DNA from: Sedimenticola sp.
GTDB taxonomy: Bacteria; Pseudomonadota; Gammaproteobacteria; Chromatiales; Chromatiaceae
Assembly: GCA_027083925.1 (NCBI GenBank)
Contig: JALWMK010000031.1
Location: 1 to 64,000, forward strand
Direction: 5' to 3'
DNA: 64,000 nt
The translations under genes were made by a program, and so were the position numbers. This document shows positions 50,678 through 59,177 of the stretch, piece after piece (the stretch's first letter is position 1; every line of letters begins with the position of its first letter). Below the pieces are notes generated by a model. It made no database searches and was not told the DNA's origin. It was given only the letters and a program-made list of their open reading frames with translations.

Positions 50678-50895
50678 AGGCAGCCTTAGTAATTTACGCC
50701 TGGCATCTACGCACATTAGGGTAGCGATAACTTCGTTGACAAACACAGCGGAAGAAAGTCTGGGATAAAATCAACTCGGAGCATAGGCGCTGATTTGGGG
50801 GCGCTTACCAATAGACGGACATGGCTGCATGATTAAATCGGACAACTTTGTTGACAAACACCGAACCTGCTCAAACAGAATTAATAGAGGTGCCC
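50678..50895. mobile_element. MITE copy C (diverged)
   Basis: AGGCAGCCTTAGTAATT ... AATTAATAGAGGTGCCC with flanking TAAA/TAAA; shares GCATCTACGCACATTAGGGTAGCGATAACTTCGT with copy B. Confidence 0.75.
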
Positions 50896-53047: not shown

Positions 53048-53064
53048 GGGCACCTCTATTAATT
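53048..53064. mobile_element. Solo MITE terminal inverted repeat
   Basis: Exact GGGCACCTCTATTAATT, identical to the TIR of copy B. Confidence 0.7.
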
Positions 53065-54878: not shown

Positions 54879-55128
54879 GGGCACCTCTACTAATTCTGTT
54901 TAAGCAGATTCGTGCATGAGGACAGCGAGAACAAGGCGAAGATCGCAGCAAATACCACAGGGCACCTTATCTTACGCAAGCGCAATTCACCTTGTAGCAG
55001 GCAATTTGCAACATGTTCAAAGCTTCCGCTCCCAGCTTACGCCCCTCACCTGCATCCCTGTAGGCGACGAAGTTATCGCTGCCCTCATGTGCGTAGATGC
55101 CAATCATCATGAATGAATAGAGGTGCCC
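54879..55128. mobile_element. MITE copy A (250 bp)
   Basis: GGGCACCTCTACTAATTC...GAATGAATAGAGGTGCCC; flanks TCTG/TCTA. Confidence 0.85.
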
Positions 55129-55129
55129 T

Positions 55130-56503
55130 CTAATGAATACCATCTATAATGAAGGTGTCGCCAAACCTATCATGATCCAGATGACGCACCGAGAACTCTC
55201 CTTTTGCTCCCCATTTTAAAATTCCGGAATCTTGGTCAAAATGGGGAAGAGCGGTCGGTTGAAGCATTATTACGTAGTCACCCGGCTTGAAATATTTCGA
55301 CAACCAAGACGATGAAGTATACTTTCCATAGTTGTAAACATTGTGAGGCAACAAGTAATACATTAATTTTACGCGCCAATAACTTCTGTGTGCCTCACTG
55401 AATATAAAGATACGCGCCGGTTCTTTTGGTAGCACCTTTTCACGAAGCTTTTTTGCATAAACGTAGATATCCACGTCTGATGCCGCCAAATGCTGTTCAT
55501 GGTGGCTCTTTCCCGCAAACAAATACTTGGTATCTTCCAACTGCCGCCACAAATCCACCTGCCATTTTCCATCCAGCACCAACCAGGCGATCATGAACAT
55601 GATGACAATGGCTTTGAAGTCCCAGATTTGGCGGGTTATTGCGAAGGCAATGGTTAGTGGATTCCGGCCTGCGCCGGAATGACGGGTATCAGCGGAATGC
55701 TGAGCCGCTGATGCCTGTCGGACAGAGCGGCTTGCTTCTTCGACTTCCAGTTCAAACTTCACTTCAGACGCACGATAGAAAAACAGCCACAGGGTATAGA
55801 GCAGGATGGCCAGTCCGCACCAGGCAGCAGCTGCGACGACGGGTGACACCAACGCATTCTTGGGCATGCCTCTTATGGCATTGATGGATTTCTGGGTCCA
55901 GCCTTCGAAGGCATTCCATTCTGTCCATACGGTCAGCAGCAAGGATTTGACGGTCCACGGGCTAAAGGTGATCTGTTCGATGGTGACAGGTTGATTGCGC
56001 AGATCGCCAGACACACTGATACCCATCTCGGTAACGGGGCCTTTCCACTCCTCCTCGTTACTCATGTTGTAGGCAGACAGGTAATCACCGTTCCAGTGCA
56101 GTTTGGCAAACAGGGTTTCTTTGTTATGGGTCACGGTGCGCCAGTACAGGACCACCGTAGCGCCTGGCGTTCGTCCTGTTATCTTGTACTCGACAATGGG
56201 GTATTTCGTGGCATTGAACAGTGCTTTCCTGGACGAGATAACGGCAGATTTCGCTTCATCCAGCGCTTTCAGCTTCAGTGCACTGCCTTCATGACCTCCT
56301 TTGCCGATGGCAATATAGAAGTCTTTTCCTGTCAGGACGATGGGCTTTGTCTTGGCGCCTGCCACCAATTGAGGGTAATGCCAGGCCAGAAACCCTGCAA
56401 CCAGGATGAACCCGCTGATGAGCATGAACACAATGGCCGCAAGCAGCGCACGCAGAAAGCCCCGGTTGCTGTTACTTGGTCTGAATTTTTCGATCGCGGA
56501 CAT
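55130..56503 (-). CDS. Hypothetical membrane protein (bracketed by inverted MITEs, contains in-frame REP)
   Basis: MSAIEKFRPSNSNRGFLRALLAAIVFMLISGFILVAGFLAW...; three TM segments. Confidence 0.7.
   Translation of the reverse strand: MSAIEKFRPSNSNRGFLRALLAAIVFMLISGFILVAGFLAWHYPQLVAGAKTKPIVLTGKDFYIAIGKGGHEGSALKLKALDEAKSAVISSRKALFNATKYPIVEYKITGRTPGATVVLYWRTVTHNKETLFAKLHWNGDYLSAYNMSNEEEWKGPVTEMGISVSGDLRNQPVTIEQITFSPWTVKSLLLTVWTEWNAFEGWTQKSINAIRGMPKNALVSPVVAAAAWCGLAILLYTLWLFFYRASEVKFELEVEEASRSVRQASAAQHSADTRHSGAGRNPLTIAFAITRQIWDFKAIVIMFMIAWLVLDGKWQVDLWRQLEDTKYLFAGKSHHEQHLAASDVDIYVYAKKLREKVLPKEPARIFIFSEAHRSYWRVKLMYYLLPHNVYNYGKYTSSSWLSKYFKPGDYVIMLQPTALPHFDQDSGILKWGAKGEFSVRHLDHDRFGDTFIIDGIH
55658..55685. 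repeat. REP unit inside CDS 55130..56503
   Basis: TGGATTCCGGCCTGCGCCGGAATGAC, identical to unit at 36934; translates as RHSGAGRNP. Confidence 0.85.
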
Positions 56504-56869
56504 GCTGCTGGAAAAAAGGCACTTCCCTGTTTGGGTTGAGGCTATTATAGCCGATCGGGAATCATGGCCGGGCGATGTTTCCCCCATTGCTGTATCTATT
56601 GCGATAAAAGCAGAGGGAGGGGTCAGCCGGAGGGGATCAGAATATTCCTACAAGCTGATCGGAAGAATACGCTACCCTGAACATGGGCTGGTGCGTAGCA
56701 TATACCCATCGCCACAGACCGTTGCTCATTATGAGCTGGCAAGCAAGGAAGTTTGCAGGATATGGATTTCTCTGGTCTGCTCGCGAGTGAAAAGCCCTGG
56801 CCAGAAGGAAGCTGGCCGGGGCTATTCTTTGCGCTGTGCCTTGCATGCAACATTGATGTGCCAGATTAA

Positions 56870-57116
56870 GGGCACCTCTATTAATTCATGATTGGCATCT
56901 ACGCACATGAGGGCAGCGATAACTTCGTCGCCTACAGGGATGTAGGTGAGGGGCGTAAGCTGGGAGCGGAAGCTTTGAAAATCTTGCAAATAGCCTGCTA
57001 CAAGGTGAATTGCGCTTGCGCAAGAGAAGGTGCCCTGGGGCATTTGCTGCGATCTTCGCCTTGTTCTCACTGCCCTCATGCACGAATCTGCTCAAACAGA
57101 ATGAATAGAGGCGCCC
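56870..57116. mobile_element. MITE copy B (247 bp, inverted relative to A)
   Basis: GGGCACCTCTATTAATTC...GAATGAATAGAGGCGCCC with perfect TTAA duplication (56866-56869, 57117-57120). Confidence 0.88.
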
Positions 57117-57145
57117 TTAAGTCGAAACTAATACATCCGCTGCCA

Positions 57146-59113: not shown

Positions 59114-59177
59114 ATTCTGTTTGAGCAGATTCGTGCATGAGGGCGGCGATGCCAATCATGAATTAATAGAGGTGCCC
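59114..59177. mobile_element. MITE copy D, internally deleted remnant
   Basis: ATTCTGTTTGAGCAGATTCGTGCATGAGGGCGGCGATGCCAATCATGAATTAATAGAGGTGCCC. Confidence 0.75.

Follow-up and report, generated by a model that had tools for sequence, protein, structure and literature searches.

How do short repeats without a transposase gene come to be scattered through a bacterial genome, and what do they carry between their ends? Both questions are raised by the window, the whole 64,000-nt stretch analyzed here, which is contig C31 of a 2.58 Mb draft genome (G000, 176 contigs). MITEs are usually taken as decayed insertion sequences (IS). In the present family discrete inner modules may be present or absent, and one of them is common to elements with 4-bp and with 8-bp target duplications (TSD) in many gammaproteobacterial families. 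Our main reading, to which we give a probability of about 85%, is a non-autonomous family of IS5-type MITEs that is moved in trans and contains discrete hairpin modules in a BOX-like arrangement. An earlier note on this DNA had proposed a new MITE family. The family is real and had been rightly described in outline, and we class it as new and of IS5 type. The note had missed the modular interior, and this is the more unusual feature.

A scan of the window for the 17-bp TIR GGGCACCTCTATTAATT gave matches at 53048, 54879, and 56870 on the forward strand and at 50879, 55112, 57100, and 59161 on the reverse strand, and recovered copies A, B, and C, remnant D, and the solo end of the earlier note, each where it had been placed (Table 1). 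Copy B has fold z-scores of -7.0 and -7.8 on the two strands. The left TIR of copy C is decayed (AGGCAGCCTTAGTAATT) and its interior differs from that of the other copies, while remnant D has lost one TIR and keeps a complete TIR at the other end. An inner block, TTTGTTGACAAACACMG, is common to copy C (50678-50895) and a remnant on contig C27 (L257) and is a possible third module.

Table 1. Features of the MITE family in the window.
Feature	Positions	Strand	Evidence
MITE copy C, 218 bp, chimeric interior, TSD TAAA/TAAA	50678..50895	+	
Solo TIR, exact 17 bp, without partner or interior, remnant	53048..53064	+	
MITE copy A, 250 bp, of the 247-bp type, both modules present	54879..55128	-	TIR scan and BLASTN
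47-bp hairpin module within copy A	55021..55067	-	
TSD TTAA, left of copy B	56866..56869	.	
MITE copy B, 247 bp, near-palindromic core and both modules	56870..57116	+	TIR scan and BLASTN
47-bp module of copy B (CGCCTACAGGGATGTAGGTGAGGGGCGTAAGCTGGGAGCGGAAGC plus one or two flanking bases)	56928..56974	+	
42-bp central module of copy B (ACAAGGTGAATTGCGCTTGCGCAAGAGAAGGTGCCCTGGGGC)	57000..57041	+	
TSD TTAA, right of copy B	57117..57120	.	
Remnant D, in which one end is fused to a subterminal part of the other	59114..59177	-	

The copies are many and dispersed. Over the whole genome the TIR matched 149 times with up to three mismatches, vs. 5 times for a reversed-pattern control, and the family comprises about 75 elements in G000. 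The genome-wide BLASTN search with copy B that the earlier note had proposed found at least 40 places, several of them exactly at contig ends, indicating that the family probably also breaks the assembly. The elements are short (158-247 bp in the main forms, with a 17-bp TIR and the outer 54 bp of the arms ~80% alike) and, at 250 bp or less, contain no transposase gene. The frame noted in the 158-bp form has 42 codons; it was set aside as a gene candidate, since the 47-bp insertion and 1-bp indels shift the frame.

A size of about 220-250 bp had been given for the family. Sizes are not continuous: they fall into discrete classes, two of which (158 and 247 bp) are the main ones. At 158 bp, the smallest form is a near-palindrome (foldback) from end to end and lacks the 47- and 42-bp modules. 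A 200-bp form in genome G006 consists of this 158-bp core with the 42-bp block at its centre and without the 47-bp module, and the 247-bp form, represented in G000 by copies A and B, has the core, the 42-bp block, and the 47-bp block in its left arm. Together with a related element in G004 (L250), which has the 47-bp block but not the 42-bp one, these forms show that all four module combinations exist. Between species the two arms vary in concert: G000 has ATGAGGGCAG in each arm, G005 and most of G006 have TTGAG..CTCAA in each, and other variants occur in G009 and in G034, which is of another family.

The 4-bp target duplication of the earlier note holds for the genome as a whole, as it is exact at 25 of the 35 distinct TIR-to-TIR copies (~0.1 expected by chance), with a longer duplication at 0/35. 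The flanks TTAA/TTAA, TAAA/TAAA, and TCTG/TCTA were read correctly, but in place of the suggested "T..A/G" bias the target is TNNA as a rule (TTAA, TATA, TTCA, TGTA, TCTA, TTGA, TAAA, TGAA, CTAA, TTTA, and one ATAT), and the TCTG in the TCTG/TCTA flanks of copy A is one decayed TNNA site. Another palindromic repeat, of the GGTCATTCCGGCGCAGGCCGGAATCC type, repeatedly hosts the MITE, always at one TTAA of its right arm (L014, L016, L038; contigs C36, C71, C97); C118 has an unoccupied copy of this repeat. At L014 the flank past the MITE differs, which suggests a composite or one-ended event.

Empty sites, another check proposed earlier, were sought by comparing ten joined flanks with 18 relatives. 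MITE-free sites are present in the sister species G009, which mostly has 85-96% identity to G000 in matching stretches, and in other relatives. Base-level alignment gave a single target copy, TATA, in L306 and L310 and the related CGTA in L308, some other empty sites being too changed to read at this level, and G000 itself has one copy of a host repeat free of the MITE (contig C118, L315). One insertion, with target TATA, breaks a gene that in G009 is a whole 217-aa ORF, presumably a nitroreductase. Empty sites with one target copy and exact 4-bp duplications point to transposition and not to segmental duplication. At one mismatch, the TIR matches 3 times in G009 vs. 104 times in G000; this is a lineage-specific burst in the G000 lineage which, with no detectable transposase, makes a clear case for mobilization in trans.

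The IS with matching TIRs that the earlier note had advised looking for is found in the same genus, in the form of IS5-family (IS5_4) elements with similar ends; elements of this kind are widespread in proteobacteria. One such element in Sedimenticola sp. G007 (L075; L160 is apparently the same) has the ends GGGCACCTCTAAAAATTC and GGGCGCCTCTAAAAATG, and its gene scores 229 bits against NCBIfam IS5_4 (NF033581; cut-off 140) and has the Pfam domains DUF772 and DDE_Tnp_1. This gene is itself interrupted by a small palindrome of 151 bp (L075:2150-2300), which is bordered by CACA on each side and has TIR-like ends (GGGGATCTCG/GGGCACCTCG). An intact IS5-family element of 1259 bp in Ca. Sedimenticola endophacoides (L087/L117) has the end GGGAACCTCTAAAAATTC and the TSD AATT, and the IS5-family ends in the same genus and family read GGG[CA]ACCTCTAAAAATTC. 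Among 80 IS5-family relative loci fetched from other genomes, the ends were checked in 32; these are mostly GGGCACCTC[TG]A..AAT or close to it, about half with an exact 4-bp TSD. The IS5_4-type element L144 begins with GGGCACCTCTATTAATCC and has the TSD TTAA. The MITE ends match those of the autonomous elements L075, L087, and L144, being similar and not identical over 17 bp (even the nearest IS of the genus has 2 differences over the 17 TIR positions), and the TSD is 4 bp long in both the MITE and the IS5-family elements. The likeness is limited to the ~17 terminal bases; next to these the MITE departs from the examined IS ends, and on comparison no internal IS sequence was recognized in it.

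In the G000 assembly, which as a 176-contig draft may lack multicopy IS, neither a DUF772 or IS5_4 match nor a relative of the IS5-family protein was found. Its sole DDE_Tnp_1 gene (L043, contig C47) was considered as mobilizer and rejected, because it is of IS4 type, has the ends CACTGCTGTCCCATTAA, and has a frame broken by an in-frame TAG. From IS5-type ends and 4-bp duplications elsewhere and no such transposase in G000, we infer mobilization in trans, which the earlier note had proposed and which is the best reading. An IS5-family transposase (IS5_4, DUF772/DDE_Tnp_1) would have recognized the MITE ends and moved the element, and would since have been lost from the lineage or lie outside the assembly. 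A transposase of another family that gives 4-bp duplications, such as the IS1380, IS701, or IS1182 types, is an improbable mover: no transposase with exactly the ends of the MITE was found in G000, which leaves room for it, but its TIR and the length of its TSD fit the IS5_4 elements found in its genus, its family, and many other genomes, and the start and TTAA duplication of L144 argue the same way. That the copies arose by segmental duplication or recombination, without transposition, is very improbable. The same left neighbor does occur at L014, L016, and L038 and on contigs C36, C71, and C97, but this common flank is another palindromic repeat that hosts the MITE, with an uninterrupted copy in C118. 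Flanks are otherwise mostly unrelated, and the empty sites already refute duplication for most copies, whose target duplications are exact in 25 of 35 cases.

The 47-bp module is a conserved hairpin by prediction, separate from and not private to the IS5-type MITE family. In a sample of 369 Gammaproteobacteria spread evenly over the class, 22 had its pattern (0 for the control), with a maximum of 44 copies per genome, and in a phylum-wide draw of 299 genomes it was found in that of the window only. It is also present on Pseudoalteromonas and Saccharobesus plasmids, the plasmid records matching this module only. Phage records gave no match, and a literature search for the letters of the module found no paper quoting it. 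In G042 the module lies within a MITE whose TIR is GTAACTACTCAG and whose target duplications measure 8 bp and are exact in 9 copies; this second family (L207-L223) measures 197-250 bp and has length variants of its own. In G015 it lies within at least two other palindromes (L224-L243), and those ending in ATAGGATGTG/CACATCCTAT and in CTCTCGCCAAG/GCGAGAG look like further repeat families. Elements of the genus Sedimenticola have 0 or 1 module each. In other genera there are tandem arrays with a unit length of exactly 47 bp: L292 has six units, L282 five, and L265 two. The predicted hairpin is built around CCTACA-NGGA-TGTAGG. Over 58 distinct sequences, with three instances with indels left out, 92.5% of the cells pair vs. 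at most 46% when the structure is slid, relatedness inflating the shuffle tests. One pair is C-G in 25, U-A in 20, and G-C in 6, and another is A-U in 39, G-C in 10, and G-U in 6, while a G-U pair is kept in 46/58. Three Watson-Crick types at one pair would be hard to get otherwise than by conservation of pairing.

How one module came to sit in different hosts, and whether the folds act as RNA, may be answered in different ways. The module may be an internal relic that different elements inherited from one ancestral MITE, as its matching position in related elements from the genus (G004, G014) suggests; its presence between ends that are not related, with TSDs of 4 bp in G000 and of 8 bp in G042, its occurrence in several different palindromes of the one genome G015, and the existence of tandem arrays argue against this, and we hold descent from one ancestor to be possible and rather doubtful. 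We also regard as unlikely, and offer as speculation, that the module is a spreading unit which would enter the loops or stems of unrelated palindromes, multiply in tandem, and be kept by selection on the RNA fold, with MITEs of different transposase families as its vehicles across the Gammaproteobacteria. Selection on a transcribed, functional RNA hairpin, and not merely on palindromic DNA, could account for the co-varying arms of the MITE. In 18 of 56 arm pairs both sides are changed with pairing kept, and the covariation score is 0.205 (shuffles 0.100, slid structures no more than 0.060), related copies inflating the counts; the CG/UA/GC pair and the conserved G-U of the module point the same way. 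However, the arms change by exchange of a ~13-base block on both sides, the outcome to be expected of tract conversion or of template-switch correction in a palindrome, and no Rfam family matches the MITE or the module at gathering scores, relaxed thresholds giving chance-level matches only. The block-wise change of the arms is as suggestive of tract conversion in the palindrome as it is of RNA selection, and a functional RNA is to us a rather unlikely explanation. If transcribed, the modules would add stable hairpins to flanking mRNAs. The MITE has fewer consensus matches to outward promoters or terminators than shuffles, and by crude ORF calls no preference for convergent gene ends was seen (17 tandem, 8 divergent, and 5 convergent sites).

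Several known systems resemble the family in part. With the IS5 family, including IS5_4, and the MITEs on its ends it shares a GGGCACCTC-type TIR, a 4-bp duplication, a gene-less foldback, and a high copy number, but its interior is modular and, as far as seen, unrelated to the IS, and it has no autonomous partner in the G000 assembly. RUP (an IS630-type MITE) and Correia elements are likewise short foldbacks whose presumed mobilizer is an IS acting in trans, but they have other TIRs and targets, and we know of no inner module common to them. ERIC, also a palindromic gammaproteobacterial element, seems to differ in its ends and arms and duplicates TA. An alignment of its core GCTTACATAAGTAAGTGACTGGGGTGAGC with the module keeps their order and scores 23, vs. 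22 for the 99th percentile of shuffles; this weak, post hoc match concerns the core and may serve as a lead only.

In architecture the family parallels BOX of Streptococcus pneumoniae and S. suis. In pneumococcal BOX, boxA and boxC ends enclose a variable number of tandem boxB, and in S. suis the same boxB is carried by two kinds of ends (PMC3049150). Here also, two kinds of mobile outer parts with TIRs and target duplications, of 4 and of 8 bp, carry one module. Module size is similar, with 47 bp here and ~45 bp in boxB, and the number of tandem inner modules varies, being 0 or 1 in the genus and 2, 5, or 6 in other genera. We read the elements as mobile ends that enclose structured inner units in varying number. 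In contrast to BOX, they occur in another phylum, have IS5-type or 8-bp-TSD ends, and include a module found across many families; the larger MITE form may be called BOX-like, not BOX, the likeness being one of architecture alone. The origin and spread of BOX-like modular repeats thus become testable outside streptococci, with a natural series of 0, 1, 2, 5, and 6 units and empty sites at hand.
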